Positions 4,104-21,103 of a stretch of DNA of 64,000 nt are shown piece after piece (the first letter of the stretch is position 1; each line of letters begins with the position of its first letter). The notes beneath the pieces are model-generated. The model was not told the origin of the DNA. It made no database searches and saw nothing but the letters and a program-made list of their open reading frames with translations. This DNA is from a virus. The position numbers were made by a program, and so were the translations under genes. The stretch covers positions 1-64,000 of the IMG/VR virus record IMGVR_UViG_3300020057_000035; one strand, 5' to 3'.

Positions 4104-4157
4104 TTGGGTCACGTCCTTCACTTGCTGATGTAATCTTAGCACGTCGGGGGATTTGTG

Positions 4158-4232
4158 TCAAGCGGCGGGCTGGCAATCGTTGCAGCCTGTGTCCTTGAAT
4201 AAACCGTAATAGAACAGCACCGCTTGACTTCT
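4158..4232 (-). ncRNA. candidate structured small RNA R1, copy a
   Basis: The promoter (4235-4263, TTGACA / TACATT) is followed by the leader GTAGAAGTCAAGCGG with no ribosome-binding site. GTCAAGCGG (4220-4228) pairs perfectly with CCGCTTGAC (4158-4166). Inside is a GGCTG...CAGCC hairpin. A GTG-started 20-codon frame exists, but its start is lost in copy c, which argues for RNA. Confidence 0.5.
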
Positions 4233-4651: not shown

Positions 4652-4727
4652 GTCAAGCGGCGGGCTGGCAATCGTTGCAGCCTGTGTCCTTGAATAAACC
4701 GTAATAGAACAGCACCGCTTGACTTCT
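4652..4727 (-). ncRNA. candidate structured small RNA R1, copy b
   Basis: Near-identical to copy a. Arms CCGCTTGAC 4652-4660 and GTCAAGCGG 4715-4723 (read leftward). Promoter at 4730-4758. Confidence 0.5.
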
Positions 4728-5314: not shown

Positions 5315-5455
5315 GTCAAGGAAGGTCTGACTTCTATTTATACCAGACTGTACCGGCGTCGTCCCGCCACTCATTCCCTAACCCCAACGCTACTAAGCGG
5401 ATCGGGACTGTGTTAGTTCTGTGGCGATGTCCGTTGTAGCTTCCTTAACTTCTAC
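5315..5455 (-). ncRNA. candidate structured small RNA R2
   Basis: The promoter (TTGACA 5479-5484, -10 TATATT 5456-5461) leads into GTAGAAGTTAAGGAAG. GTTAAGGAAG (5440-5449) pairs with CTTCCTTGAC (5315-5324), with a G-U where R1 has G-C. A GTCTG...CAGAC hairpin lies near the 3' end. No ribosome-binding site or good frame was seen. Confidence 0.45.
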
Positions 5456-5564
5456 AATATAGCACGTCGGGGAATTTGTGTCAACTCCCGTTCTGTGCTG
5501 CCAAAATTGCTTTTCTCACTTCCTGATGTAATCTTAGCACGTCGGGGGATTTGTGTCAAGCGGC

Positions 5565-5630
5565 GGGCTGGCAATCGTTGCAGCCTGTGTCCTTGAATAA
5601 ACCGTAATAGAACAGCGCCGCTTGACTTCT
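5565..5630 (-). ncRNA. candidate structured small RNA R1, copy c
   Basis: Same as R1 a/b with CCGCTTGAC 5565-5573 and GTCAAGCGG 5618-5626. A base change turns the GTG of the 20-codon frame to GCG while keeping the RNA helix. Promoter at 5633-5661. Confidence 0.5.
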
Positions 5631-6241: not shown

Positions 6242-6336
6242 TTCTTGTCACTTCCTGATGTAATCTTAGCACGTCGGGGGATTTGTGTCAACTCGATGAT
6301 TTGACTACCACACTTTGGGATTTGTGTCAAGTTCAG

Positions 6337-6590: not shown

Positions 6591-6598
6591 ACTTTATG

Positions 6599-7189: not shown

Positions 7190-7275
7190 TGTTTCAAAAT
7201 TCAAATTTTAAATTCTAAAACGCAAATTCAATTTCTCAAATCTGAATTCTAAAATTTGAAATTTGAATCTCTAAA
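7190..7275. repeat. A+T-rich tract 2
   Basis: TTTCAAAATTCAAATTTTAAATT-type words, 853 bp right of the parS-like site at 6337. Preceded by two copies of AGAATCGAATCCTAC (about 7091 and 7151). Confidence 0.7.
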
Positions 7276-7292
7276 TAGCAGACTAGCGATCC

Positions 7293-7760: not shown

Positions 7761-7780
7761 TGCGTTTCTCACTTCCTGAT
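7440..7780. repeat. tandem fusion repeat of fic fragment and zinc-ribbon gene
   Basis: Two near-identical units of about 170 bp. Each joins a fic fragment (matching 7905-7945) to the zinc-ribbon gene start at a short shared GAATGG-type junction. Confidence 0.7.
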
Positions 7781-7813
7781 GTAATCTTAGCACGAGAGTC
7801 GATTTGTGTCAAC

Positions 7814-8242: not shown

Positions 8243-8249
8243 TTCTGTA

Positions 8250-8283
8250 ACTTAAGTATGGCATACTTAAGTATTTGTGTCAA
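8250..8283 (-). promoter_or_regulatory. promoter with 23-bp palindromic operator
   Basis: -35 TTGACA 8278-8283 and -10 CATACT 8255-8260. ACTTAAGTATG, one base, then its reverse complement occupy 8250-8272, covering the -10 and spacer. The same palindrome is at 10258-10280, which suggests a shared dimeric regulator. Confidence 0.75.
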
Positions 8284-8606
8284 GCGCCACACATTCCCTT
8301 CGTTGTTTCCATGTATTCTTTCACCGCTTCTTGCATTGCATCGTTTTTCATGTTCTTGGAATTCTCCAGAGTAATCTTCCCCCAGCATAAACTTGTCAGC
8401 ATTTTGGCAACTTCTTTTGCCGCCCATACCGTGGCATATCTTCCCGGGAGTTTTAAGCCAGTTACTTCGTGAGTGATTATCCACTTGCCGGATTCCTTTC
8501 CGGTAGTGTATTCTCGGTGAATAAAGAATTGATTAATCCTGTATCCACTGACTTTTACTTGGGCGGTTCCGTTGCTAGTTCCTGTAAGAATCTTTGCGGT
8601 TTGCAT
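8280..8606 (-). CDS. hypothetical 108-residue protein
   Basis: Starts MQTAKILTGTSNGTA, a module shared with the next gene upstream (8608-8811), and then diverges. Start after AGAGGAATTTCTAAG. It is the last gene of the 9730-8280 cluster. Confidence 0.65.
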   Translation of the reverse strand: MQTAKILTGTSNGTAQVKVSGYRINQFFIHREYTTGKESGKWIITHEVTGLKLPGRYATVWAAKEVAKMLTSLCWGKITLENSKNMKNDAMQEAVKEYMETTKGMCGA

Positions 8607-8607
8607 C

Positions 8608-8811
8608 TTAGAAATTCCTCTGGATATGCGTATCTATCAATCTTCCAGCTCCAACTGATGTGGCTGACTCATCTTCCCATCCACAAGTATCGCAACGTAC
8701 CAAGAAGGAGCGCCTCGACCACCGGACAGGACTACCGGCCTCGTGGATTTTGTTCTTACCCTTTCGGGCGGTTCCGTTGCTAGTTCCTGTGAGAATCTTT
8801 GCGGTTTGCAT
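8608..8811 (-). CDS. hypothetical protein with a CxxC motif
   Basis: 67 residues. The N-terminal module MQTAKILTGTSNGTA joins ARKGKNKIHEAGSPV (shared with 9823-10053) and a CDTCGWED unit. The ATG directly follows the stop of the preceding gene (TAAGATG), suggesting translational coupling. Confidence 0.6.
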   Translation of the reverse strand: MQTAKILTGTSNGTARKGKNKIHEAGSPVRWSRRSFLVRCDTCGWEDESATSVGAGRLIDTHIQRNF

Positions 8812-8812
8812 C

Positions 8813-9067
8813 TTATTTTGCATCAAGGAATTCTCGAATTGCCTTGTAGGTGTGAGGAATGCTAAAGTACTTGCAAGCATTCTTTACAGCTTTTCCGTCC
8901 TTATTGGCCGTTCCATTATCAAGGGAAAGCGTCATGCTGCGTGCGAGCGATGCTGGCGTAGTGATAGTGGCTGGATACATGTATTCGGGATCTTCTCGAA
9001 AGAGGCGAGTGTACTCTTCTTTCAAGTATTCGTAGAATGAATCTAGGTTTATTTGTGTGGCTTCCAT
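8813..9067 (-). CDS. hypothetical 84-residue protein
   Basis: Begins MEATQINLDSFYEYLK and ends HTYKAIREFLDAK. The tail resembles YTHKAIHAWLR of the 16543-16788 protein, so the two may be distant relatives. The start is set by GCGGAGAAAAC after a conserved leader hairpin. Confidence 0.6.
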   Translation of the reverse strand: MEATQINLDSFYEYLKEEYTRLFREDPEYMYPATITTPASLARSMTLSLDNGTANKDGKAVKNACKYFSIPHTYKAIREFLDAK

Positions 9068-9071
9068 TAGT

Positions 9072-9105
9072 TTTCTCCGCATCGCCCCGCGTGTCCGGGG
9101 TCGAT
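9072..9105 (-). promoter_or_regulatory. 5' leader hairpin, copy 1
   Basis: ATCGA-CCCCG ... CGGGG-CGAT stem immediately before GCGGAGAAAA and the ATG at 9067. Copies precede the next two upstream genes, at about 9395-9425 and 9735-9765. Confidence 0.6.
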
Positions 9106-9123
9106 AGATGAACCCTACCAGCA

Positions 9124-9387
9124 TTATGATGCTACAGCCTCAAAATTCATTTCATTAGCGCAATATGTCACCATATTTTGTGATGTATACTCGCCTAAAT
9201 ATGGATCATGAGCTGTTATTGCGATGGTAAGATCCCATGATTTAAGAATGCGATTCCATCGGCGATTGCGTTCAATAAATCGTGCGCCATGTTCAAATTT
9301 TACGGGCGATCCATATTTTGGCCAAAGGATAATGGTATTTATGGGCGTAAGAATCGGATATACAGTATGGACATCGTAGGCGTTCAT
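9124..9387 (-). CDS. hypothetical 87-residue protein
   Basis: Begins MNAYDVHTVYPILT. Not recognised. Start after GCGGAGAAAGTCAA and leader hairpin copy 2. Confidence 0.65.
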   Translation of the reverse strand: MNAYDVHTVYPILTPINTIILWPKYGSPVKFEHGARFIERNRRWNRILKSWDLTIAITAHDPYLGEYTSQNMVTYCANEMNFEAVAS

Positions 9388-9484
9388 TTGACTTTCTCCG
9401 CATCGCCCCGCGTGCTCCGGGGTCGATGTGATGACTCTAATTGATGTGGTCGACTCATCTTCCCATCACGCTATTTGATGGACT

Positions 9485-9730
9485 TTAATATCCCGGCTCA
9501 TCTGAAAGAATCCATAAAATAGCCTTATGGGGATCTTCTAGTTTCCAAGAGATAATAGGCATAAGGGATTGAATACCAATTCCCCTACGCGGAAGCCAAT
9601 GCCCAACAGAGCGTTCCTGAATAGCTCCTATCTCTTTTCCTTCACGCATTAAAGTAATGTTCTGATGGCCGTTTACATACGTTGTTTCATATGTAATTCC
9701 AGTAGTTATAACATCCCCTGTTGGCATCAT
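9485..9730 (-). CDS. hypothetical 81-residue protein
   Basis: Begins MMPTGDVITTGI. Not recognised. First gene of a short leftward cluster with promoter 9815-9843 and leader hairpin copy 3, whose stem has one mismatch. Confidence 0.65.
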   Translation of the reverse strand: MMPTGDVITTGITYETTYVNGHQNITLMREGKEIGAIQERSVGHWLPRRGIGIQSLMPIISWKLEDPHKAILWILSDEPGY

Positions 9731-9814
9731 CCCGTTTTCTCCGCATCGCCCCGCGTGTCCGTGGTCGATCGGACGGTTCCGTGCGTATCTATCATCTCTT
9801 ACCTCGCTGTAGCT

Positions 9815-9843
9815 ATCTTAGCCTAGAACTCGATTTGTGTCAA
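9815..9843 (-). promoter_or_regulatory. promoter of the 9730-8280 cluster
   Basis: -35 TTGACA 9838-9843, -10 TAAGAT 9815-9820. The -35/spacer lies inside the end of the 9823-10053 gene. Confidence 0.8.
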
Positions 9844-10053
9844 GGTTACATCGAAGTCTCGATCATTTGTAAGCGCCACCCATCGCTCTTTGCCTTGAAT
9901 ATCGTTATTCGGTCGAATAAAGATCCAAGGGCCACTCTTTGGGGAAAAGCTAACGGACTCCCTTTGATCAAGGATAATCCAAGAAACAGGACTATCGGCC
10001 TCGTGGATTTTGTTCTTACCCTTTCGGGTTTTGCCATTGAGTAAAATTCGCAT
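9823..10053 (-). CDS. hypothetical 76-residue protein
   Basis: Begins MRILLNGKTRKGKNKIHEA and shares the KGKNKIHEA-SPV segment with 8608-8811. Start after GAGGTAAGAA. The stop lies in the spacer of the following promoter. Its own promoter is 10073-10101 (TTGACG / TAAGAT). Confidence 0.6.
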   Translation of the reverse strand: MRILLNGKTRKGKNKIHEADSPVSWIILDQRESVSFSPKSGPWIFIRPNNDIQGKERWVALTNDRDFDVTLTQIEF

Positions 10054-10075
10054 TTCTTACCTCGCTGTAGCTATC

Positions 10076-10234
10076 TTAGCGTGTTTGACTATTTGCGTCA
10101 AGCATTCTTTTAGTCTTTACACGCATTTTGTCACAATCGCAGATATCTGTTCGCTGTCGAACATTGTCAGCTTGATTCACAAGAATTTGCTGAGCGATGA
10201 ATACGTTGGGATCTCTCGTTCCAATGATTCGCAT
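10076..10234 (-). CDS. hypothetical 52-residue protein
   Basis: Begins MRIIGTRDPNVFIAQQ and includes CDCDK. The ATG follows GGTTGAGGGAGACAAAAA. Its TAA is the first three bases of the next gene's -10 TAAGAT. Transcribed from the palindrome-covered promoter at 10263-10291. Confidence 0.6.
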   Translation of the reverse strand: MRIIGTRDPNVFIAQQILVNQADNVRQRTDICDCDKMRVKTKRMLDANSQTR

Positions 10235-10257
10235 TTTTTGTCTCCCTCAACCTTGTG

Positions 10258-10291
10258 ACTTAAGTATGCCATACTTAAGTATTTGCGTCAA
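10258..10291 (-). promoter_or_regulatory. promoter with 23-bp palindromic operator, second copy
   Basis: -35 TTGACG 10286-10291, -10 CATACT 10263-10268. The palindrome at 10258-10280 is identical to that at 8250-8272. Confidence 0.75.
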
Positions 10292-10319
10292 GAGGGTAGG
10301 GCGTCGGCGACGCGGCGCA

Positions 10320-10610
10320 TTACTTCACTCTGATAGTCACGAAGTAATGATGGTCACAATCATCATCTTCTGCACATTCACAAAGAAATACGTATTTCTT
10401 TGAGTATGCAGAAATATCGATCGTACTGGTATCGTAGCCTTGACATGCAAGCTGCTCACAGGCATCCTCTGCCGCTTCATGCTTACTCTGCCCAATACCT
10501 GTGGCAATGTCGTCAAAGTCCGTATAAGTCAGGCCAGCGCCGTGCCAGTATTGGCTGCTATCCCAGCATATTTCGATGTCGTACTCTGTAATTTCCATCG
10601 CGGGGGTCAT
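10320..10610 (-). CDS. paralogous acidic protein with CxC/DHH motif, copy 1
   Basis: 96 residues with a central DFDDIATGIGQS block and C-terminal CECAEDDDCDHHYFVTIRVK, possibly metal-binding. The paralog at 19297-19587 has the same length and C terminus. Start after AAGGACGTGACCC. Promoter 10639-10667. Confidence 0.7.
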   Translation of the reverse strand: MTPAMEITEYDIEICWDSSQYWHGAGLTYTDFDDIATGIGQSKHEAAEDACEQLACQGYDTSTIDISAYSKKYVFLCECAEDDDCDHHYFVTIRVK

Positions 10611-10663
10611 GGGTCACGTCCTTCACTTGTCTGATGCTATCATAGCATCAGACAGGATTTGTG

Positions 10664-10882
10664 TCAAGCGAACATGAGCGCTATCTCCCGTGCATTCTCC
10701 ACCCTGATACACGTCCCGCATACCAGCGATTGATCCGGCGACCAGTTCGCACCATTCGCCCGAATTGTTCGCCCGCATATCGCGCGATACGTAGGCGCAT
10801 CGTATCGATCGTCGTCATCTACCAGGTGTGTTGCACGCTCGCCATATAGGGATTGTGAAACGGGAACTAAATTCGTTATCAT
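10664..10882 (-). CDS. hypothetical protein with CGTC motif
   Basis: 72 residues starting MITNLVPVSQSLYG. Cys at CGRT and CGTC suggest a small zinc site. Start after GGAGAACCCC. Promoter 10914-10942. Confidence 0.65.
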   Translation of the reverse strand: MITNLVPVSQSLYGERATHLVDDDDRYDAPTYRAICGRTIRANGANWSPDQSLVCGTCIRVENAREIALMFA

Positions 10883-11042
10883 TGTTTGGGGTTCTCCTTC
10901 ACTTCCTGATGTAATCTTAGCACGTCGGGGGATTTGTGTCAAATCGATGATTTGCCTACCACACTTTGGGATTTGTGTCAAATCGATCCCTTCACTTCCT
11001 TTGTGATGCTATCATAGCACGCTGATGCGAATCTTTGGAATG

Positions 11043-11432
11043 TTATCGCGTAGCAATTTCCGTAACTCCTGCATCACAAAGATCATAAACAATCTGTTGA
11101 ACTGTATCACTATCTACAAATCCCGCCACACTGACACAACTGTGTTCATAATGCGGTTCAAATTTACTTACCCACTCAAAAGGCAAATCATGTGGACATA
11201 TTTTCGAGATTCCAACGTCGTCGGTGGGGGTTCTCCATATTGCTACTTCAAACTTAGTGTACGATTCTAGCGATAACCCTGTCACTTTTGGTTCGCAATA
11301 ATGATATTCACTAGCCTGAACACTTACCGTATGATTACCAGCACGAAAATTATTGAATCCCAACACATGAAAATTATTGAATCCCAAACTTTCTATCCGT
11401 GGCGTCATATGATCCCGAAATCCAATTGCCAT
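11043..11432 (-). CDS. hypothetical 129-residue protein
   Basis: Begins MAIGFRDHMTPRIES with an internal duplicated LGFNNF segment. Function unknown. Its ATG overlaps the stop of the upstream Cys-rich gene (TAATG), indicating coupling. Confidence 0.7.
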   Translation of the reverse strand: MAIGFRDHMTPRIESLGFNNFHVLGFNNFRAGNHTVSVQASEYHYCEPKVTGLSLESYTKFEVAIWRTPTDDVGISKICPHDLPFEWVSKFEPHYEHSCVSVAGFVDSDTVQQIVYDLCDAGVTEIATR

Positions 11433-11665
11433 TATATCCCCCTCGATGCTGCATATTCACGCTTTTGATCATTAAACATATTTTGCCATTCACCTTCCGC
11501 GCACTCTTCGCAATTGCCGCAGTTTTCACATTTACAGCAATTGCAATTGTTACAATCTGATTGACAGTATTCAGTGTGTTGCATGTGATAATGTCCGCCC
11601 ATATTTTCCCACGCCTCTTCGGCGTTTAGTCTTTTTCCTTCTTCGCGGTCATCGTCGTAGCTCAT
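11432..11665 (-). CDS. Cys-rich protein, paralog of 3486-3683
   Basis: 77 residues: acidic N terminus (SYDDDREEGK), dense Cys motifs (CQSDC, CNCCKCENC, CEEC), and an ECAEGEWQNMFNDQKREYAASRGI tail. A near copy of that tail is fused to the DUF6197-like protein at 26219-26611. The ATG at 11665 follows GACAAAA. The promoter upstream (11735-11740 -35) has lost the normal -10 spacing. Confidence 0.7.
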   Translation of the reverse strand: MSYDDDREEGKRLNAEEAWENMGGHYHMQHTEYCQSDCNNCNCCKCENCGNCEECAEGEWQNMFNDQKREYAASRGI

Positions 11666-11750
11666 TTTTGTCTGGCACACCATAGGTCGTGTAAGCTGAT
11701 GAATGGTATTTCACTGCCCATGTCGTTGGTCGATTTGGGTCAAGCCACTT

Positions 11751-11942
11751 TTACTCACAGTAGCAACGGTAGGGTTGCCCGCCCTCGTAATGAGTTGCCA
11801 CTACGATAGCAGCGGGATAACCACTACGGACGTAAACTACCTGAGAATCTTCTGCATTCTGAAGATTGCCCTCTTCTGAATAATTCACGGCGATCCTTTG
11901 TGAGTTCGGAATCCAGACTCCGAAACCATGATTAGTTGCCAT
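11751..11942 (-). CDS. hypothetical 63-residue protein
   Basis: Begins MATNHGFGVWIPNS and ends CYCE. Not recognised. Promoter 11966-11994, with a second promoter directly behind it at 12016-12044. Remnants of this 5' leader without the gene occur near 4605 and 5505. Confidence 0.65.
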   Translation of the reverse strand: MATNHGFGVWIPNSQRIAVNYSEEGNLQNAEDSQVVYVRSGYPAAIVVATHYEGGQPYRCYCE

Positions 11943-12039
11943 TGCTTTTCTCACTTCCTGATGTAATCTTAGCACGTCGGGGGATTTGTGTCAACTGCCC
12001 TCACTTCCTGATGTCATCATAGCATGGGGATCGATTTGG

Positions 12040-12170
12040 GTCAAGGTGGGTAGTTCGACGTTGCATTCTTGGCAGCCCGACCTTCATGAGCCTATTTCAG
12101 CCTGATATGGTCGCCGAACATCCCCGGTCAAACCCGTGGTCTAACTTCACGTAGCCACAACTTGACTTCT
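12040..12170 (-). ncRNA. candidate structured RNA R3, copy a
   Basis: Promoter 12173-12201 (TTGACC / TATATT) and leader GTAGAAGTCAAG. GTCAAG (12161-12166) can pair with CTTGAC (12040-12045). Internal helices are GTGG...CCAC and GTTCGGCG...CGTCGAAC. The second helix covaries with the related element at 19680-19966 (GTTCAGCG...CGCTGAAC). Confidence 0.5.
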
Positions 12171-12242
12171 ACAATATAGCACGGGAGTAGATTTGGGTCA
12201 AGGAAGGTCTGACTTTCTCACTTCCTCGGGAGGCCGAGTGTG

Positions 12243-12476
12243 TTATGCGCGCCAGGACCGATACTCACACTTGTCACACTCTGGAATGACCCCGTACCCA
12301 CTGCCGTAATTGTAATCCGTGATTAGGACGCCGCATCGCCCGCAGGCGCAGCCGAGCGCTGCCGAGCGGAGCGCCGCGCTTAGGCGATCTTCGTATGATT
12401 CTCGGCTCTCGAACCGAGCTTCAAGTGAGCGCCGTACCTTCGACGGGTCGAATATGCGGGAAGCGATCGTAAGCAT
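12243..12476 (-). CDS. zinc-ribbon-like protein
   Basis: 77 residues. Helical, Arg-rich N terminus, then CACGRC and CDKC pairs. Start at 12476 after AAGGGAGACACC. Promoter 12562-12590. A further TATACT lies near 12528-12535. Confidence 0.6.
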   Translation of the reverse strand: MLTIASRIFDPSKVRRSLEARFESRESYEDRLSAALRSAALGCACGRCGVLITDYNYGSGYGVIPECDKCEYRSWRA

Positions 12477-12597
12477 GGTGGGTGTCTCCCTTACCAGTGT
12501 CGGCGTTTCCCGACCACCTGATGTACTAAGTATAGAGTACGTTCCTTCACTTGCTGATGCAATCATATCACGCCGGAGGATTTGGGTCAAGTGATGC

Positions 12598-12807
12598 TTA
12601 TGATACCGTCCAATTGCCAGTAGCAAGTAGCATTTTAGCCTCGGCCTTCGTGCGTGCCGTGTAGCGATATCCAGCAGCATAGCCTATCTCGTCCTGCTGA
12701 ATGGTGAGTACGTCATAACTCTCACCATTAAGATCGCGAAACTCTATCGTTACGGGTCCAGCTTCACGAACGATATGGGTTCGAGTGACGATGAGAGGGT
12801 AGGGCAT
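12598..12807 (-). CDS. hypothetical 69-residue protein
   Basis: Begins MPYPLIVTRTHIV and ends YTARTKAEAKMLLATGNW, a common alpha/beta small phage protein layout. Promoter 12828-12856. Confidence 0.65.
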   Translation of the reverse strand: MPYPLIVTRTHIVREAGPVTIEFRDLNGESYDVLTIQQDEIGYAAGYRYTARTKAEAKMLLATGNWTVS

Positions 12808-12852
12808 TTCTTTCACTTCCTGATGTAATCTTAGCACGTCGGGGGATTTGTG

Positions 12853-13053
12853 TCAACTGCCCTTGTGGTCGATGTCCCATGTTTTCGCAGCATCCCGCAA
12901 ATCCCGTGTGGTAAGCAATCCAGCCGCTACCATTTCCAATGCCGCAGCCATCGCCCAATGTCGAGCATCATCAGGATTATCCCGATTATCGAATGCCAGA
13001 TTTACGTTTCGCATCGTATGCGTGTGCTCGATAGGACGGTTAAGAACAAGCAT
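12853..13053 (-). CDS. hypothetical 66-residue protein, copy 2
   Basis: Identical protein to 4260-4460. The shared DNA block runs from about 12850 to 13060. Promoter 13080-13108 differs from that of copy 1. Confidence 0.7.
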   Translation of the reverse strand: MLVLNRPIEHTHTMRNVNLAFDNRDNPDDARHWAMAAALEMVAAGLLTTRDLRDAAKTWDIDHKGS

Positions 13054-13108
13054 TTTGTTTCCCTCATTTCCTTGATGTAATCATAGCACGCTGGGCTATT
13101 TGTGTCAA

Positions 13109-13138
13109 CTACCCTACCCTTGTCCAAGACCAGGGCAT
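13109..13138 (-). CDS. nine-residue minigene MPWSWTRVG, copy 2
   Basis: Same peptide as 4518-4547, here with an intact promoter 13167-13195 (TTGACA / TACGAT). The leader GACGTGACCC precedes the ATG. Confidence 0.4.
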   Translation of the reverse strand: MPWSWTRVG

Positions 13139-13194
13139 GGGTCACGTCCCGTCACTTGGTAAGACCATCGTAGCACGTCGGGAGATTTGTGTCA

Positions 13195-13305
13195 AGGGAA
13201 GTCGCCTTCACATCCATATATGCCAGATGTGTCCATTTCCTAGGCCGGGTAAAAATAATTCCCCGCGCAGTGCAATATCACTACTTCTGGCGACTTCCTT
13301 CACTT
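13195..13305 (-). ncRNA. candidate structured RNA R4, copy a
   Basis: From promoter 13315-13343. AAGGAAGTCGCC (13289-13300) pairs with GGCGACTTCCCTT (13195-13206 region). Inside lie a CACATC...GATGTG hairpin and GGGG...CCC. No start codon in a useful position. Confidence 0.5.
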
Positions 13306-13364
13306 CCTGATGTAATCTTAGCACGGGAGTCGATTTGTGTCAACTCCCGTGCAGTGTTATTTGT

Positions 13365-13601
13365 TTACCATCGGCGATCGATGCTGGCGAAGGCGTACGC
13401 GCCTTTTTCTTCGGGATTGATCCAGAACGATAGCGGAGCATGGCCCGCGTATGTTTCGTTCCTATCGCCCGGCTGGTAAACGTGAAGCGCATAACCGTTC
13501 GTGCGAAGATAGTCGGCAGCATCGTCCACGTTCAATTCAACGCGAACCGTGCGACCTTCGCCGTTGCGAATTGCTATCGGGTACTCATAGGTGACTGGCA
13601 T
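13365..13601 (-). CDS. hypothetical 78-residue protein
   Basis: Begins MPVTYEYPIAIRNGEG. Mid-protein DDAADYLRTNGY and ALHVYQPGD. Function unknown. Start after GAGGAACACC. Promoter 13628-13656 (TTGACT / TATGAT). Confidence 0.65.
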   Translation of the reverse strand: MPVTYEYPIAIRNGEGRTVRVELNVDDAADYLRTNGYALHVYQPGDRNETYAGHAPLSFWINPEEKGAYAFASIDRRW

Positions 13602-13666
13602 GGTGTTCCTCAATTCCTTCTGATGCTATCATAGCATGGGGATCGATTTGAGTCAACCCGTCCTGC

Positions 13667-13876
13667 CTAGAATCGAGATCCTAGGCAATTGAGAGAGATC
13701 GCATCTCCAGCGATATCAATCCCGTTAGGCGGGTTAGATTCTACGTGTACCATAGCACCACAATTTTGACACTGCGCCCACGCCCACGCTGGCCAATGAT
13801 GGAATTGACCCATGCTATGCCCATGCCACGTGCAGGATTCGAGTGCAGATTTTCGGAGTGTCTTAACTGATGCCAT
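13667..13876 (-). CDS. zinc-binding-like protein
   Basis: 69 residues with CTWHGH, CQNCG and a late Cys, the spacing of a small zinc ribbon. Start after GGAAGTGAGAAACC. Promoter 13915-13943 has a mutated -35 (TCGACA). Confidence 0.65.
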   Translation of the reverse strand: MASVKTLRKSALESCTWHGHSMGQFHHWPAWAWAQCQNCGAMVHVESNPPNGIDIAGDAISLNCLGSRF

Positions 13877-13917
13877 GGTGGTTTCTCACTTCCAAAGTTT
13901 AACTTCCTGATGCAATC

Positions 13918-14139
13918 TTAGCACGTCGGGGGATTTGTGTCGAGTGCCCGCCATACGATGGCCCAGACTTTGCGAGCGGCGGCGTAGGCGTCAAGGTGGG
14001 CGGCGATGGCGGCGGTGTAGGCATCGTGTCGCTCGTCGCCACCCAGCGCATCGAACGCCTCACGGGCGGCGTCTGTCAATGCGTTGAGAGCGTCGGCTGA
14101 TGCAAACACTTCGCGGTAAACGGTGGCGTAAACAGGCAT
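13918..14139 (-). CDS. Ala-rich helical protein
   Basis: 73 residues, G+C-rich codons unlike most neighbours, suggesting recent transfer. The stop codon is inside the next gene's -10 (TAAGAT). Promoter 14167-14195. Confidence 0.65.
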   Translation of the reverse strand: MPVYATVYREVFASADALNALTDAAREAFDALGGDERHDAYTAAIAAHLDAYAAARKVWAIVWRALDTNPPTC

Positions 14140-14190
14140 GGGTCACGTCCTTCACTTGCTGATGCAATCTTAGCACGTCGGGAGATTTGT

Positions 14191-14300
14191 GTCAAGTCGC
14201 CTTCACATCCATATATGCCAGATGTGTCCATTTCCTAGGCCGGGTAAAAATAATTCCCCGCGCAGTGCAATATCACTACTTCTGGCGACTTCCTTCGACT
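14191..14300 (-). ncRNA. candidate structured RNA R4, copy b
   Basis: Near-identical core to R4a with a shortened closing helix AAGTCGCC (14284-14291) / GGCGACTT (14194-14201). Promoter 14311-14339. Confidence 0.5.
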
Positions 14301-14335
14301 TCCTGATGTAATCTTAGCACGGGAGTCGATTTGTG

Positions 14336-14506
14336 TCAACGACACTTGTCCGAGGCCCATCGCGGGCCGAATTCCTTGCATTTGGTAAAGGCGATCCTTC
14401 GTGCGTGTTTTCCCCAGTGCCTTGCAATGCATGTCGTATGGATCGGATGCATATCGAAGATGGGCATAAATTCTTTACCGCAACATCGGCAGATAATTGT
14501 TTCCAT
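14336..14506 (-). CDS. small zinc-finger-like protein
   Basis: 56 residues beginning METIICRCCGKEF. CRCC plus His and Cys (MHPIHTTC) suggest a metal site. Start after GTGAGAAACGCC. Promoter 14530-14558 (TTGACT / TAAGAT). Confidence 0.65.
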   Translation of the reverse strand: METIICRCCGKEFMPIFDMHPIHTTCIARHWGKHARRIAFTKCKEFGPRWASDKCR

Positions 14507-14559
14507 GGCGTTTCTCACTTCCTGATGCAATCTTAGCACGCTGGGAGATTTGAGTCAAG

Positions 14560-14770
14560 TTATCGACGGTCTCGATTGTGCTTACCACATTTCTGCATTT
14601 GTGTCAAATCGAACAAATGATAAGGCTGGTGATCTGATATTTATTACGATCCCCAATGTTTCACGTGAAACACTTTTTCACGATTTTTTCGATTTAATTG
14701 AAAAAAAAAAACGATTTGGGGGTCGCACGCATTATATATGCGTATATTAAAAAATCACGGAAAAATCCCC
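14560..14770. promoter_or_regulatory. composite element 3
   Basis: parS-type TGTTTCACGTGAAACA at 14657-14672. A poly-A/T stretch is followed by TATATATGCGTATAT (about 14731-14745) and AAAAATCACGG. Only a decayed GAAC-N4 half box (about 14610) is present. No gene. Confidence 0.7.
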
Positions 14771-15154
14771 CTAACCATGCGCATTACATTTTTCATTTTT
14801 CAAATTGCTCTTTACTATAGATTCAAAAACCCAATTTCTTAGAAAAGGAAATTCAAGTCTTATCTCTTCTAAGTAATTCTTTCCTCCGCATTCAATAAAT
14901 CCTTCCGCCCACTGCTTAATTTGAAAATTAAGGTTGACTTTGCCCTGTAATGCGGAGAATAACAACCTGGGATGCTTAGTTGAAGCCCTTTCCCCATTCT
15001 CCCACTTCAAAAATGCTTTATTAGCTGAATAACCATTATTTTCTTTCTTAATTATGGGATTACTCCCGTTAGTAGGGGGAATGAAGCTTTTATCCCATAA
15101 TCTGTACCATTTTACATATATCCAGAAATCAGGATGTATTTTTTCATTTTTCAA
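14771..15154 (-). CDS. hypothetical 127-residue protein
   Basis: Begins MKNEKIHPDFWIYVKW. A+T-rich codons. The NLKNEK segment recurs at its end through a short DNA duplication (14786-14803 and 15136-15153). No good ribosome-binding site, so the start is uncertain. Confidence 0.5.
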   Translation of the reverse strand: MKNEKIHPDFWIYVKWYRLWDKSFIPPTNGSNPIIKKENNGYSANKAFLKWENGERASTKHPRLLFSALQGKVNLNFQIKQWAEGFIECGGKNYLEEIRLEFPFLRNWVFESIVKSNLKNEKCNAHG

Positions 15155-15248
15155 ATTATTTCTACTTTAAATTAAGCCTCCTCTTTTACTGCCCTTCTAT
15201 CTCGGAACCTAAACCACCAAATAATTCTACGTGCGGTGTGCGACCCTA

Positions 15249-15437
15249 TCATATCACCAGCATTTCTGTTGCAAATGCACGGAACGACTGGTCCTCCGTT
15301 CCCGCGCCACATGTTTGCACGTGCTTTGTGATCGCCGCGTTCGCCGCGATCTCGTCCCGGAACATTGCACGACCTACTGAGCACGCACATTGAACGGCTA
15401 TCCAGCCTCGATCAGAAGACACTAGAACTTCGAACAT
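15249..15437 (-). CDS. hypothetical Cys-containing protein
   Basis: 62 residues from MFEVLVSSDRGW, with CACS and a HVQTC end. ATG 15437 is 7 nt after AAGGAG. G+C-rich. Function unknown. Confidence 0.55.
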   Translation of the reverse strand: MFEVLVSSDRGWIAVQCACSVGRAMFRDEIAANAAITKHVQTCGAGTEDQSFRAFATEMLVI

Positions 15438-15481
15438 GACCATTCTCCTTGAAATAGAGCTGCATGGCGATCTATTCGCCA

Positions 15482-15548
15482 TATTTCAAAATTCAAATTC
15501 TAGATTTCAATTTCTAAATATAAAATCTAGTTTCTGAAATCTTTAATG
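15482..15548. repeat. A+T-rich tract 3
   Basis: ATTTCAAAATTCAAATTCTAGATTTC-type words, 825 bp right of the parS-like site at 14657. Confidence 0.65.
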
Positions 15549-15549
15549 T

Positions 15550-15741
15550 CTAATCTATATGTGCGAGATACGGATCTCTATCTGATAGTTGTGTACCAAT
15601 ATACTCGTATGAAATTAGATTCAATTTGACCATTTCATCAATGATCCTCATTGCCCACGCTCGGGATTCTATTTTTTTGTTCACGTTGAGGTAAGCGATT
15701 GATTTGCTTAGTGCTCTGTTGATCTCTGTTCTATCTGTCAT
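15550..15741 (-). CDS. hypothetical helical protein
   Basis: 63 residues beginning MTDRTEINRALSK. The promoter 15748-15776 has its -10 (TAATCT) only 6 nt before the ATG, so the message would be leaderless. Confidence 0.6.
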   Translation of the reverse strand: MTDRTEINRALSKSIAYLNVNKKIESRAWAMRIIDEMVKLNLISYEYIGTQLSDRDPYLAHID

Positions 15742-15743
15742 AT

Positions 15744-16022
15744 TTACAGATTACCACTCTGTGAGATTTGTGTCAAGTCTATCTGTTTCTCTTTAACTCT
15801 TCGACTTACGTTTCGTTTATTGTACTCTGTTTTTCGTGTGTTTGCTTCTCTTGAGGTTTCGTGCTCCCATACTGGAGTACCAGTGCTGTCAATGTAGTTC
15901 GGACGTGCATATTTGATGCGGGGATCATCGTCACCATGATATTGTACGTCTTTACGTCCTAGATCAATCCATCTCTTTGGATCATAGACTTCTCGTCCTT
16001 TGCGCCCTATTAGTTCGGCCAT
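15744..16022 (-). CDS. hypothetical basic protein
   Basis: 92 residues from MAELIGRKGREVYDPKRW. The start at 16022 overlaps the upstream gene by 13 nt. The stop lies inside the leaderless promoter of the next gene. Unknown family. Confidence 0.55.
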   Translation of the reverse strand: MAELIGRKGREVYDPKRWIDLGRKDVQYHGDDDPRIKYARPNYIDSTGTPVWEHETSREANTRKTEYNKRNVSRRVKEKQIDLTQISQSGNL

Positions 16023-16213
16023 GCTGTATTGTGTACCTCTTCCTCTATTTTGTTTTGTTCTTCTTGGTGTTCTTCTGCTTGTGCTTGTGCATCCGACCAA
16101 TCACTACTAGATCCTACGGAATCATTACAGTCATAGCAGAAAGCGACGTATCCACTATAGGGATGATCGTCACAGCATCCCCCACGGTCTGAGACACTTA
16201 CTTCGTGTTCCAT
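16010..16213 (-). CDS. hypothetical Cys/acidic protein
   Basis: 67 residues from MEHEVSVSDRGGCCDDH, with CYDC and an acidic Gln/Glu-rich tail. Possibly zinc-binding. A TTG start at 16252 is an alternative. Confidence 0.5.
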   Translation of the reverse strand: MEHEVSVSDRGGCCDDHPYSGYVAFCYDCNDSVGSSSDWSDAQAQAEEHQEEQNKIEEEVHNTAWPN

Positions 16214-16273
16214 TACTCTATGAACAATCCCGCAATCGCGAAAGTGAAACAAAGAGTAGCGAAGAAGAATAAT

Positions 16274-16438
16274 TCAAACATTTACTTTTTCCTTCAACGT
16301 AATTGTGTTTTTTAATATGCCCTCAATACTGAACCCAAGTGCTCCAATCTCACAAAGATTGCTGCAATAGGTCAGCCGTAGGCTTGATGTGCTCTTAGAC
16401 GTTGTGTATATCGTCTTGCATCGCTCACAAACTTTCAT
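16274..16438 (-). CDS. small zinc-ribbon-like protein
   Basis: 54 residues starting MKVCERCKTIYTT, with a second Cys pair (CSNLC). Start after AAAGGTGGACACG. Promoter 16473-16501 (TTGACA / TACACT). Confidence 0.6.
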   Translation of the reverse strand: MKVCERCKTIYTTSKSTSSLRLTYCSNLCEIGALGFSIEGILKNTITLKEKVNV

Positions 16439-16542
16439 CGTGTCCACCTTTGTATTGTTTCTAACTACTCACAGTGTATCATCAAAGGGCATTTGTGTCA
16501 ATAAGCATAATAATGAGTGCTCTTTCCCTAAACCTGTCAAAC

Positions 16543-16788
16543 CTAGATATTTGGGGTACGTAACCATGCGTGAATCGCTTTGTGTGTATATTCAATTTCT
16601 ATGATATCCAGGACTTGAGGAAAGAACTGTTGAGTAGGGGAGAAACGTCCATTGCGAAGAGAAAAAGCCAATTGATCCATATTTTTGATTTCTAGCTTTT
16701 CATCACTTTCGCTTTGTATTCTTTCATACAAATCAATAAACAATTCCATCTTATCTTCATTCAGTGTACTCGAAAACCAACTAGTCAT
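16543..16788 (-). CDS. hypothetical 81-residue protein
   Basis: Begins MTSWFSSTLNED and ends IEYTHKAIHAWLRT, resembling the 8813-9067 protein at its C terminus. Start after AGGAGAAACTAT. Confidence 0.6.
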   Translation of the reverse strand: MTSWFSSTLNEDKMELFIDLYERIQSESDEKLEIKNMDQLAFSLRNGRFSPTQQFFPQVLDIIEIEYTHKAIHAWLRTPNI

Positions 16789-17029
16789 ATAGTTTCTCCT
16801 GTAGTGTGGCGCACTTTTCTGCATCATCATCTGGGGCCGCCCGCGTTGGCCTTGTGACGTTGCCCGCCCAAAATGTGAGCAACGTCACGCTCGTCGGGTA
16901 TGCCGGTCGCTGGTTGTTGCGGCCCACCTTCACGAGATCAGTCATCATAGGGGCCAATCCGCTAGCAGGTCCCATGCGTTTGCCACAAGTTCGCAGGTGG
17001 CGGCGGGCATCAATCTTCGTTAGGATCAT
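16781..17029 (-). CDS. hypothetical G+C-rich protein
   Basis: 82 residues. The end overlaps the start of 16543-16788 and the start lies inside the end of 17010-17339, which suggests a coupled cluster. An internal start (MTDLVKVGRNN) is possible. Unknown. Confidence 0.4.
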   Translation of the reverse strand: MILTKIDARRHLRTCGKRMGPASGLAPMMTDLVKVGRNNQRPAYPTSVTLLTFWAGNVTRPTRAAPDDDAEKCATLQEKLYD

Positions 17030-17339
17030 CGTCGAAAAATACGTGCATCGAAACTACTCGACCCTCTCGATTCTTCTCTACATATACGGGATAAAATCCA
17101 TCACCGTAGCCTGTTTCCACTGCTACAGCATAACCGCTGTCTAGGTCACCTGAACGTTCCTTAGAATTTGATGCTTGACAAGCGCCCTCGTAGCTATATG
17201 CGTATGGCAGCTTACAATCCTCTGGCTCTAAATTAAGATTGTTTCCATGTGTAACAAACCGATCAAGATAGCAGGGATCGCCTACCATCACCTGACCAGA
17301 ATCTACCATCACTTTGCCCACAAGTTCCATTATGTCCAT
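17010..17339 (-). CDS. hypothetical protein with DSGQVMVGDPCYL motif
   Basis: 109 residues. The N-terminal VDSGQVMVGDPCYLDRF block is common in small phage and bacterial proteins of unknown role (DUF4241-like). Start at 17339 or at ATG 17330. The promoter 17364-17392 (TTGACA / TATATT) overlaps a decayed version of the ACTTAAGTATG palindrome. Confidence 0.65.
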   Translation of the reverse strand: MDIMELVGKVMVDSGQVMVGDPCYLDRFVTHGNNLNLEPEDCKLPYAYSYEGACQASNSKERSGDLDSGYAVAVETGYGDGFYPVYVEKNREGRVVSMHVFFDDDPNED

Positions 17340-17375
17340 CCTTCTTTTTTCCTCTGTGTACTTAATATACCAGAC

Positions 17376-17588
17376 TTAGGTATTTGTGTCAACTCCCGTT
17401 CTGTACTGCCACGGGACTGCTCGCCATGCGGCATCTTCCGCCTTTGCTGTTTCATACCACGCTTCATCTTCGATGGGCATAGGGTGGGAAGATTTGCGCC
17501 TCCAACTACTCGCCATCCTTGCAGTGCTTTCTGCCTTTGCAGATTCACGCCATATGGCGTAGGCTATGTCGAAAGTATTTATTGACAC
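17376..17588 (-). CDS. hypothetical Trp/Ala-rich protein
   Basis: 70 residues from a GTG at 17588 after GAGGAACAAAGAA. Loose internal repeat (SAKAESTARMASSW / TAKAEDAAWRAVPW). The stop lies in the next promoter. Promoter 17616-17644. Confidence 0.55.
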   Translation of the reverse strand: MSINTFDIAYAIWRESAKAESTARMASSWRRKSSHPMPIEDEAWYETAKAEDAAWRAVPWQYRTGVDTNT

Positions 17589-17640
17589 TTCTTTGTTCCT
17601 CATTTCCTTGATGTAATCATAGCACGCTGGGAGATTTGTG

Positions 17641-17793
17641 TCAAATTATCTTTGTGCGCGCAAAGTCGATCATCCAACGAATACCAGAAAGAGTATCTGC
17701 TTTAACATAACCATAGTCTGGTACTAGGGCGGAATACATGTCTGAGTGCTCAATACGATCAACGGTTATTCCATGATAGGTGCGTAGTTTCAT
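17641..17793 (-). CDS. hypothetical 50-residue protein
   Basis: Begins MKLRTYHGITVDRIEH. Same layout as 24014-24205 (MKTTIYRGVAIEEHD), so probably a related small fold. Its TGA sits on the following -35. Promoter 17820-17848 (TTGACA / TACAAT). Confidence 0.6.
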   Translation of the reverse strand: MKLRTYHGITVDRIEHSDMYSALVPDYGYVKADTLSGIRWMIDFARTKII

Positions 17794-17867
17794 GTTTGTT
17801 CCTTTTCCTTGGTGCGTTTATTGTAGCAGCAGAACCTATTTGTGTCAAGTGACACGTTGTGTCAATC

Positions 17868-18251
17868 TTAGAAAGGCACATATACCCTGAATAGTGGGGG
17901 ATGCACCCGCCACATTTCCATGCGATCCGCCGCACTTAATTCATAGCCCTCTCCGGTTCCCATAATTCCTTCGCCTTCGATATGATTCAGCCAAAGGCAA
18001 TGACCGACTTCGTGTGTAATAATCTTCTGTTGAAGCTGAGCAGGATATGTTTGCCATACTGGTGGTACCCAGATTACACAACTGCCTTCAGCAACATAAG
18101 TCCATGCGGCCCAAATGCGTTCATATTCGCGAAAATCTACATTATCACTAGTAGACGAATCATGTACCTGAATATCAGGTACAGTAAACATGGAACCAAG
18201 GGCACTCCATAATGCAAGGGCAATCATCACCATTGTTTGTACTAATCCCAT
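17868..18251 (-). CDS. predicted exported zincin-like metallopeptidase
   Basis: 127 residues. A hydrophobic N terminus (MGLVQTMVMIALALWSALGS) looks like a signal or anchor. HEVGHCLWLNH gives the zinc-peptidase pattern HExxHxxxxxH, with Trp where metzincins carry Gly. An IMGTGEGYELSAAD stretch follows. It would cleave proteins outside the cytoplasmic membrane. Start after GGAGATTAGAT. It directly follows the 18254-18574 gene. Confidence 0.7.
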   Translation of the reverse strand: MGLVQTMVMIALALWSALGSMFTVPDIQVHDSSTSDNVDFREYERIWAAWTYVAEGSCVIWVPPVWQTYPAQLQQKIITHEVGHCLWLNHIEGEGIMGTGEGYELSAADRMEMWRVHPPLFRVYVPF

Positions 18252-18253
18252 AT

Positions 18254-18574
18254 CTAATCTCCGTCTCCGTAGATTGATTTGTATGCCACCGTATGCCACC
18301 GTCGAGCGGTGCTATGTGCGATCGCAACATCGTCGGAAGAAAAGTATTGGGGGAAAGTGAGAGCAACGATTGACCAATCGCAATCCTCTTCGTAGATACC
18401 TTCTTCTATACTCCACCTGGAATCAATCTCGGCGTTCCTACGCTTGCCTAGAATGTAGCCGCCGTGTGACGGAGTTTCGTACCTGATGATACCAGGGCCA
18501 TAGGTACGAGCGGTCTCCGACGTACCCCACGGGGTGCTGCGCTTGACATATCGTGCTTCTGGTTCTGTGTACAT
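18254..18574 (-). CDS. DUF7007-like protein
   Basis: 106 residues with HGGYILGKRR and YEEDCDWSIVALTFP blocks, similar to the DUF7007-type proteins I know from bacteria and phages. Function unknown. Promoter 18603-18631. Confidence 0.55.
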   Translation of the reverse strand: MYTEPEARYVKRSTPWGTSETARTYGPGIIRYETPSHGGYILGKRRNAEIDSRWSIEEGIYEEDCDWSIVALTFPQYFSSDDVAIAHSTARRWHTVAYKSIYGDGD

Positions 18575-18627
18575 GTTCTTTCCTCACTTGCTTGATGATG
18601 TAATCTTAGCACTGAAAGGTATTTGTG

Positions 18628-18924
18628 TCAACCACCCATAAGGTTGGAAGCATCAGATGTATACCACCTATAGATGGCATCTAGTGCTATACGTGCTGGC
18701 CTGTCTCCACCGTGCTCAAATTCTTTTACTGTGAGATTGGCGAGTAGGTTGTATGCAAATGCGATTGCCAATTGTGGATAGAATGGTGCGGCATTCTTCG
18801 CTGCCTGTTTTGTACCATATGGACACGCCCATCCATAATCCAGAATCACATCGTACAGCGTCTCAGGGACTGCTATACACGCTTCCGCTCCGCCATAGTG
18901 TGCATGAAACAATTTGTCTTTCAT
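18628..18924 (-). CDS. hypothetical 98-residue protein
   Basis: Begins MKDKLFHAHYGGAEAC. Not recognised. Promoter 18954-18982 (TTGACA / TAAGAT). Confidence 0.65.
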   Translation of the reverse strand: MKDKLFHAHYGGAEACIAVPETLYDVILDYGWACPYGTKQAAKNAAPFYPQLAIAFAYNLLANLTVKEFEHGGDRPARIALDAIYRWYTSDASNLMGG

Positions 18925-18956
18925 TTTGCTTTCCTCGACTGTTCTGTGATGTAATC

Positions 18957-19217
18957 TTAGCCTAGATTGAGGTTTGTGTCAAGGTGCTTACACCCAAACT
19001 TAGATCCACCGTACCAATGCCCTTCCCACATAGTTCCACTAAGAATATACTGCTGGATATTGTTCCTATGTGGGGAAAAAGGATCTTGTTGTGCAATCCT
19101 AGCAAAGACATTCAATACCTTGATCTTTTCTCTGATAGTAAGCTCATGGAAAGTACGTGCCGCTACAATGTATGCCCTATTATTACCGAAGGACAACGGA
19201 ATTACGGTTGCTTTCAT
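18957..19217 (-). CDS. hypothetical 86-residue protein
   Basis: Begins MKATVIPLSFGNNRAY. Not recognised. Start after GAGGAAAAGAAA. The stop is inside the next promoter. Promoter 19253-19281. Confidence 0.65.
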   Translation of the reverse strand: MKATVIPLSFGNNRAYIVAARTFHELTIREKIKVLNVFARIAQQDPFSPHRNNIQQYILSGTMWEGHWYGGSKFGCKHLDTNLNLG

Positions 19218-19296
19218 TTTCTTTTCCTCATTCGCTTTTTCTTGTTGATGTAATCTTAGCACGATAGGGGATTTGTGTCAAACAGGCTTCGGTAGT

Positions 19297-19587
19297 TCAC
19301 TTTACCCTGATGGTTACGAAGTAATGATGGTCACAATCATCATCTTCTGAGCACTCACACAATTGTGTGTAGTTCCCTGAGTATGCGGAAGTATCGATCG
19401 TACTGGTATCGTAACCTTGATGTGTAATCTGCTCACAAGCGTCCTCTGCCGCATCACGCTCGCTTTGACCAATACCTGTAGCAAGGTCGTCGAAGTCCAT
19501 ATAAGACTGACGCCAAAGATTGAGAGTAAAGTATTGGCTATGATCGTAGGATATCTCGATGTCGTATTGTTGAATCTTCCTCAACAT
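19297..19587 (-). CDS. paralogous acidic protein with CxC/DHH motif, copy 2
   Basis: 96 residues. Shares DFDDLATGIGQSERDAAEDAC and the CECSEDDDCDHHYFVTIRVK end with 10320-10610. Promoter 19645-19673 (TTGACA / TACTAT). Confidence 0.7.
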   Translation of the reverse strand: MLRKIQQYDIEISYDHSQYFTLNLWRQSYMDFDDLATGIGQSERDAAEDACEQITHQGYDTSTIDTSAYSGNYTQLCECSEDDDCDHHYFVTIRVK

Positions 19588-19679
19588 TTATTTTATCCTT
19601 TCAAGAATTTTCCATCTTTGTTTCCTCGATTGCTTGATGTACCTATAGTATCATCGCTCTTGATTTGTGTCAAGTAAGT

Positions 19680-19966
19680 AGTTCAGCGTTGCACTATCGG
19701 CGGATGTATCTTCCTCATCCCGATTAAGCCTGTGTAGTGATCGCTGAACATCCTAAGTACTACCACTACATGATAACCGTCAGTAGCCAAAGGCATAGAT
19801 CCCCTACCTCTTCAATGAGCCGATAGGGGTAACTACCTTCTATGAAGGCGCACGGTTGTTTTACCCGTGCCTCATCCTGCGCCTACAGGGCAGACTTCTG
19901 TCGTCAAAAATACAGGTACCGGGATTCTTTACGAATTAGGAACCCATACGCATTTTTGACTTCTTA
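19680..19966 (-). ncRNA. candidate long structured RNA R3, copy b
   Basis: Promoter 19967-19995 (TTGACA / TAGTAT). Near-perfect helices: GTCAAAAAT...ATTTTTGAC, GCACGG...CCGTGC, CCCCTA...TAGGGG and GTTCAGCG...CGCTGAAC. About 285 nt without a credible gene. The 3' third matches R3a in sequence and structure. Confidence 0.55.
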
Positions 19967-19999
19967 ATACTAACACCCTAGAGCATTAGTGTCAAGTCT

Positions 20000-20272
20000 G
20001 AATAATTGTTATTTAACCATAATAACTAAGGTGTCTTTGTGTTCTTGCACTTTGCTTTAACTTTAGTGCGTCTTGATGTTTTAATTGCCCTCTTATTAAC
20101 CGCATGAGGGCTAAGCGTTGCCGTCTATTTCGTGCTGTCACTCTACTCGTTGCCCGCAAGGTAGATGCCGGTTTGATGTCGCAACGGTCTGGGCTTTGGT
20201 ACTCACCAGACTGTATTTCGATACCCGCTGTTGCAACAGATAGGGTTTGAATAGCGTTGCTTCAACTCATTA
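20000..20272 (-). ncRNA. candidate structured RNA R5a
   Basis: Promoter 20273-20301 (TTGACA / TATTCT). Hairpins GCCCTC...GAGGGC, GCACT...AGTGC and a CAGTCTGG...CCAGAC-type stem. No credible frame. Part of its 5' end recurs at 24750-24800. Confidence 0.45.
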
Positions 20273-20301
20273 AGAATAGCACACTGGCTAATTTGTGTCA
20301 A

Positions 20302-20420
20302 GTGGTCTGACTCACAAACCAGACTGTACGATTATTTATCACCAATCAACCTACACACGGGTTGCGTAGGCCACTCCCACTTCGTCAGTGAACGCGGTTT
20401 CGATAGCACTTGACTTCTTA
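20302..20420 (-). ncRNA. candidate structured RNA R5b
   Basis: Promoter 20421-20449 (TTGACA / TATACT), leader AAGAAGTCAAGTG. GTCAAGTG pairs with CACTTGAC, which is also the -35 region of the R5a promoter. A GTCTG...CAGAC hairpin lies near the end. Confidence 0.45.
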
Positions 20421-20994: not shown

Positions 20995-21103
20995 GTCTTT
21001 CACTTCCTGATGTAATCTTAGCACGTCGGGGGATTTGTGTCAAGGGCGATCTGACTTGTCGATACCAGATAGTACGTATACTACTTCGTAGCGTCCCTGA
21101 CTG

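Follow-up and report, generated by a model that had tools for sequence, protein, structure and literature searches.

Few structured RNAs coded by phages are known, and several of these have no known function. The putL and putR RNAs of phage HK022 are small RNAs of two stem-loops that lie behind an early phage promoter (available text of PMC9378689). Phage T4 carries, within its tRNA cluster, two small stable RNAs annotated as rnaC and rnaD (species 1 and 2). GOLLD and ROOL are phage RNAs without known function that often lie near tRNA islands (PMC12286853, in the portion available), and the theta ribozymes, which are hepatitis delta virus (HDV)-like, are small and adjoin phage tRNAs (PMC10879173, likewise in part). 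Here we describe two diverged copies of one element, R3a and R3b, to which an earlier note had pointed in a 64,000-nucleotide (nt) stretch of DNA (the window). This stretch comprises bases 1-64000 of the 111,848-nt virus record IMGVR_UViG_3300020057_000035, from a phage known from metagenomes alone. By computation, the two copies have promoters, a shared leader, a paralogous relationship and pairing that is kept through changes, and a neighboring RNA fold, family X, recurs in other phages. Our first choice, held with somewhat less than even confidence, is that R3a and R3b are paralogous structured noncoding RNAs that would be made early from their own promoters, be stable and act in trans.

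The known kinds that come closest are GOLLD, ROOL, and T4 rnaC and rnaD, all of them phage RNAs in tRNA neighborhoods and without known function. GOLLD and ROOL are far larger, and neither has an Rfam match at curated thresholds in the window or in 14 loci found with family X patterns. A model of family X (R1, built from 9 sequences) matches nothing in T4, and rnaC ends, judging from its sequence, in a tRNA-like T arm, which X does not. Family X is also found next to tRNAs, but the theta ribozymes fold as a nested double pseudoknot and X as an open three-way junction. R3a and R3b lie behind promoters (12201 and 19995) as put lies behind an early promoter, the word “early” being taken here from gene layout. 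The put RNA is about 70 nt long, whereas R3a has about 125 nt and R3b carries a domain between its stems, and the two are likened by layout alone. The two adjacent stem-loops typical of put are present in R3a, interrupted by a 144-nt insert in R3b and not seen in X.

Likeness and anatomy of R3a and R3b

R3a and the 3′ third of R3b had been said to align at the sequence level, and this holds for a 3′ domain of 83 to 85 nt on the minus strand. The local alignment score is 33, which is beyond that of 2000 shuffles (mean of 15.9, maximum of 26). This domain contains the 8-base-pair (bp) helix for which compensating changes had been reported. Pairing is indeed kept: A-U in one copy replaces G-C in the other, a two-sided change, and G.U becomes G-C by a change in a single arm. 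Beyond a conserved AU/UA internal loop, an outer helix of 3 bp contributes a second change of each kind. In the extended helix 11/11 pairs are kept in both copies, two of them changed two-sided and two one-sided, against 25-50% of cells pairing in slid controls. At 9.3 per kb of window, 8-bp helices with such a span are frequent, and one alone is not beyond chance; a within-column shuffle reached the observed value in 128/500 cases, and two sequences alone cannot give significance. The covariation of R3, which comes from one pair of paralogous sequences, is suggestive, not proof. Of the proposal of a conserved RNA helix, what stands is two two-sided changes between paralogs that have their own promoters and no good reading frame; the homologs through which covariation could be followed were not found.

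The three further helices attributed to R3b exist, with 11 bp (19960-19950/19913-19903), 8 bp (19829-19822/19808-19801) and 6 bp (19870-19865/19855-19850). Compared with shuffles, R3b folding has a z of −3.1 on the minus strand and −3.8 on the plus strand; since it beats shuffles on both, folding is uninformative on the strand of R3b. Judging from the promoters, the RNA strand of R3 is most likely the minus strand.

Both RNAs share the leader AGAAGUCAA, which starts three nucleotides past the −10 box, and in both the 5′ hairpin runs from GUCAA to UUGAC. Their 3′ border is the TTGAC (−35) of the next promoter, at 12044 for R3a and 19673 for R3b. One nucleotide separates the 5′ hairpin from the 3′ domain in R3a, where R3b has its 144-nt domain. 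R3b looks like R3a plus an inserted middle domain, and the 5′ hairpins appear to correspond as well. Among frames of at least 12 codons, no Shine-Dalgarno-like start was flagged in the RNAs, R3a included, apart from that of a 37-codon frame in R3b. The leader pattern AGAAGT[CT]AA has 15 occurrences in the whole record of 111,848 nt; 8 do not lie directly behind promoters of this type, and the 7 that do are those of R3a, R3b and the X copies A1-A3, B and E.

Family X

Family X is a three-way junction of the form P1-C-P2-CA-P3-P1′, in which P1′ directly follows P3′. The phage has seven copies, which account for five of the seven leader-started transcripts and two more sites (Table 1), and A1-A3 are three near-identical 72-nt RNAs. 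A search of 5′ arms against the downstream TTGAC gave 11 bp for A1-A3, 10 bp for B and 8 bp for E, and it also picked up both hairpins of R3 plus two others that are weaker. The hairpin beside the closing stem reads ACAGUCUG..CAGAC in B and E and ACAGGCUG..CAGCC in the A copies. With filters off, the top seven matches of R1 in window positions 1-34000 were the seven X copies (E values of 2.4e-9 to 0.1, the next match having 0.45). Under the same setting R3a and R3b gave no match at either place up to an E value of 10, which indicates that they are not members of X.

The stronger covariation evidence comes from this family, outside the R3 pair. Because promoter sequence partly fixes the P1 arms of the phage's own copies, it is mainly other phages that give P1 independent support. 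A strict pattern for the P3 hairpin returned 2 stretches, of which one (L173) is a true homolog and the other (L172) was judged chance. The true homolog, from another phage of 104,982 nt, lies between two promoter-like sites and has a 12-bp closing stem and a fold z of −4.3. A relaxed pattern returned 60 stretches from viruses and 7 from genomes. Several have the full P1-C-P2-CA-P3-P1′ order; many read as coding and were dropped. Among 45 nonredundant hits to the P3 sequence alone, 12 had a P1 score of at least 6 followed by CUA, whereas 300 permutations of the downstream flanks averaged 0.86 such hits and never exceeded 4. The X descriptor gave 17 hits in 1.68 Mb of loci versus 2 in the reversed control.

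Model R1 came from a seed alignment (A3) without the A copies, T20301 and the duplicate L232; a first alignment (A2) was discarded, as MAFFT had put T20301 and the A copies in the wrong place. R1 gave 29 matches at E values up to 1 in 33 sources. In the 27 distinct rows 96.2% of cells are paired, six of the seven P1 pairs are changed two-sided, and 77 cells carry two-sided changes, compared with 23.6 in shuffles. E values of R1, as of the R3 model R2, are rough, and the metagenomic records are possibly fragments.

R1 gave 0 matches at E values up to 0.5 in 743,718 bases from 94 viral loci not selected by P3. It matched 17/39 records, all of them the phage itself or records picked for the pattern, and 1/36 further records, weakly (G556), with none in T4 or three Stanwilliamsviridae. 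X is all but absent from 472 sampled bacterial genomes, two of which had a match, one judged chance. In the class of G068 it was found in 1/274 genomes, the one that gave L241, and in the class of G069 in 1/198 (G435, judged coding by eye); G069 itself, the source of L243, was missed under stricter filters. Three of six genomes with earlier pattern hits matched at E values up to 0.5, strongly in G068 alone. Comparison of four X RNAs and one flank with named phages by blastn gave no true match and 4 short weak ones.

A promoter-like (sigma-70-like) site ends 2-30 nt upstream of X at 9/24 loci, where 1.2 are expected, and six of these nine are copies of this phage. In four records (L206, L232, L221 and L241) tRNA genes lie 4-84 nt from X on the same strand; since the motifs of L206 and L232 are near-identical, these amount to about three independent cases. 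At two other loci (L209 and L236) X stands between two genes. Separately, four related phages (L202, L213, L215 and L240) have a second structured-looking element, GUCAAG..UUGAACCGGUGAAACAAU..GUUGAC, just 5′ of X.

Searches for relatives of R3 and for known RNAs

Pattern scan, blastn and model R2 all failed to return a homolog of the 3′ domain of R3. The pattern scan of viral_contigs returned 3 stretches, all chance by eye, and blastn against 50,697 phage records gave no homolog. R2 matched 2 of 37 records: the phage's own record, with its two seeds, and G037 (16.5 bits), where the match has little of the helix and lies inside a reading frame; in 23 further loci it found nothing. The leader pattern gave 75 stretches in viral_contigs, which by eye were ordinary promoters or coding, and none was adopted.

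At curated thresholds, Rfam 15 found tRNAs alone in the window and no family at the R3 or X places. In the 14 pattern loci it found one hammerhead 3.6 kb off the motif and one adjoining tRNA. The former, a type III hammerhead above the curated threshold, lies in a phage contig at L184:5936-5990 (minus strand). When R3a, R3b, the X copies and 4 X loci were scanned permissively against Rfam, nothing better than chance level matched over the RNAs. ARAGORN and Rfam placed no tRNA or transfer-messenger RNA (tmRNA) at R3 or X in the window. The hammerhead has core elements CUGANGA and GAAA (PMC10085705, in its available part) and three stems, and no Rfam match to it was obtained at the R3 or X places. 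In the open-access literature, the terms searched led to no recognized description of X or R3.

The early region of the phage

The source of the record is a tailed phage with terminase, ribonucleotide reductase, RNA ligase, ThyX and seven to eight tRNAs. The RNA ligase shares about 39% identity with those of Streptomyces phages of Stanwilliamsviridae, and ThyX up to 38% with those of assorted phages. No near relative was found by megablast, promoter pattern or two protein scans. Alignment of the RNA ligase led to 79 loci, one an identical fragment (L018) that ends short of the early region and the others 38-44% identical; two RNA patterns run on 45 of these 79 records gave 0/45 each.

From about 1 to 33 kb the window holds short minus-strand genes, most of them preceded by a TTGACACAAATC-n-TGCTAAGAT promoter, and this layout suggests that the region is early. 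In window positions 1-20000 there are 87 promoter-like sites versus 31.2 ± 5.8 in shuffles, the strong ones mostly on the minus strand, and terminator-like sites are not enriched (23 versus 18.9 ± 3.7). An exact 103-nt direct repeat (13199-13301 and 14194-14296) and a gene for a Fic-domain protein (7814-8242) lie in this part of the window, and GC skew reverses near 33 kb along with gene direction. Elsewhere in the window, the ribonucleotide reductase and terminase frames (47904-53852 and 54966-57473) look intein-interrupted, and a TnpB/IS605 OrfB gene lies at 62325-63473. Locus L012 codes for a matrixin-like (M10) peptidase (8430-9329) and, on the minus strand (14492-16981; record 78492-80981), for a phage SufB (Fe-S cluster assembly) split by a LAGLIDADG intein.

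Table 1. Positions of the R3 features and of the X copies named in the text (window coordinates unless another record is given)
Feature	Record	Position	Strand	Remarks
R3a promoter	Window	12173..12201	−	Sigma-70-type, TTGACC-17-TATATT, TG before −10
R3a RNA	Window	12040..12170	−	Leader AGAAGUCAAG, 5′ hairpin, 3′ domain
R3a 5′ hairpin	Window	12127..12166	−	GUCAAGUUGUGG/CCACGGGUUUGAC; 8 pairs by arm search; bulge and four pairs from sequence
R3a 3′ domain	Window	12046..12128	−	Arms GTTCGGCG 12119-12112 / CGTCGAAC 12060-12053, plus outer 3 bp
R3b promoter	Window	19967..19995	−	Sigma-70-type, TTGACA-17-TAGTAT
R3b RNA	Window	19674..19964	−	Leader AGAAGUCAA, 5′ hairpin, middle domain, 3′ domain
R3b 5′ hairpin	Window	19903..19960	−	GUCAAAAAUGC/GUAUUUUUGAC
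R3b middle domain	Window	19759..19902	−	About 144 nt, absent from R3a; contains 8-bp and 6-bp helices
R3b 3′ domain	Window	19674..19758	−	Arms GTTCAGCG 19749-19742 / CGCTGAAC 19688-19681
X copy A1	Window	4157..4228	−	72 nt, behind promoter 4263
X copy A2	Window	4652..4723	−	Behind promoter 4758
X copy A3	Window	5555..5626	−	Behind promoter 5661
X copy B	Window	5315..5449	−	Behind promoter 5484
X copy E	Window	20297..20414	−	Behind promoter 20449
X copy, irregular P3	Window	20181..20260	−	Behind promoter 20301
X copy, P3 AUCUG/CAGAU	Window	21042..21098	−	Behind reading frame, before promoter 21043
X copies	L206	5826-5882, 6360-6416		tRNA 14 nt before and 84 nt after
X	L232	1234-1290		tRNA 4 nt after
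X	L221	4718-4763		tRNA 23 nt after
X	L241	6796-6880		tRNA 24 nt before

Discussion

For the R3 and X RNAs we infer transcription, strand, stability, action in trans and any target. R3a and R3b would each be transcribed early from a strong sigma-70-type promoter of their own on the minus strand and, with the seven X copies, would form an early suite of nine elements. Each RNA would be a closed fold; in most copies, the 5′ hairpin (R3) or P1 (X) begins almost at the predicted start, a few nucleotides away at most, and the TTGAC of the next promoter is the 3′ border. Such a stable small RNA would be produced in quantity at the onset of infection and act in trans, a host or phage factor being bound, presumably, through the conserved 3′ domain (R3) or through the junction and P3 (X). 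We read the R3 pair as a second, phage-specific kind of RNA that shares promoter type, leader and border with X. Action in trans is our first choice because most copies in this phage are complete units between two promoters, one of them is triplicated, and relatives lie near tRNAs. A bolder version, possible although we doubt it, takes the seven copies of the undescribed X family and the larger R3 pair as immediate-early RNAs whose action in trans would be to capture a host component, or to mimic one, for example RNA polymerase, a tRNA-handling enzyme or a defense factor.

Several observations weigh against structured RNAs that act in trans. R3 membership is limited to two copies in a single genome, R3a alone folds weakly at best relative to shuffles (z of −1.0 on the minus strand and −1.7 on the plus strand), and R3b has one 37-codon frame with an upstream GAGG that is missing from R3a. 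Because terminators are not enriched, the R3 and X RNAs may be the 5′ parts of longer mRNAs. The joining of DNA cassettes at promoters may be what places their 3′ boundary at TTGAC. In family X, the A1-A3 copies are weak with R1 (E values of 0.026-0.1), five rows (L242 and L244-L247) are probably chance, 15/24 loci have no promoter seen just upstream, and the P1 counts (A4) are biased, since the model finding the rows rewards P1.

The main rival, which we consider unlikely, is antitermination in cis as in HK022 put, where nascent R3 or X RNA would bind the polymerase and let it read through pauses and terminators. The two stem-loops of R3a, one nucleotide apart behind an early promoter, come near the putL layout (as far as PMC9378689 is available), and early transcripts seem not to stop between genes. 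However, in R3b 144 nt lie between the hairpins, X has the form of a three-way junction, and X copies in other phages lie behind genes and beside tRNAs. Moreover, most genes have their own promoter, which leaves little need for read-through, and terminator-like sites are not enriched.

Slightly less likely still is that the folds belong to 5′ (or 3′) untranslated regions and either shield the mRNA of the gene that follows or regulate it by way of stability, translation or sensing. No clear terminator separates the RNAs from that gene, and pairing at the predicted 5′ end starts almost with the first nucleotide, which would agree with this. A long leader would nevertheless be optional where the next promoter lies exactly at the 3′ border, as in R3a, R3b, A1-A3, E and the copy at 21042, and the genes next to X differ among loci.

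It is improbable that X is a self-cleaving ribozyme or a processing element of polycistronic or tRNA transcripts. A small three-way junction with near-fixed junction letters and P3, variable P1 and P2, and tRNAs adjacent in four records would suit such a role, and phage theta ribozymes likewise sit at tRNAs (PMC10879173, in part). However, no Rfam ribozyme matches over the X motif at curated thresholds in the window or the 14 pattern loci, several X copies have their own promoter, and no nested pseudoknot of the HDV kind was seen. The hairpin ribozyme is recognized by the letters ACAGUC plus AGAA; these fit X, but the pairing does not. HDV-like ribozymes, tmRNA, T4 rnaC and rnaD, and permuted hammerheads (available part of PMC10085705) were also considered and dropped.

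We give an equally small chance to leftovers at the DNA level, that is, recombining TTGAC...TTGAC promoter cassettes and chance inverted repeats that have no RNA function. Repeated promoters, common borders and the exact repeat at 13199/14194 fit this explanation, but R3 and X both show two-sided changes, and X occurs in phages where no promoter array was seen. Least likely of all, and very improbable, are short peptide genes begun in both R3 copies by ATGTTC[G/A]GCGA[C/T]CA, since, against the synonymous changes at GAY and CAY read from the sequences and the 37-codon R3b frame with its GAGG, the common frame ends after 9 codons in R3a, no Shine-Dalgarno spacing fits, and the pairing partner arm changes in step.

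The small folded RNAs of this phage have no match in the RNA catalogue searched and one kind, X, recurs in other phages, so that phages may use an RNA tool so far undescribed. A compact fold that is found in distantly related phages and multiplied in one of them provides a testable handle on the roles of such RNAs in early infection.

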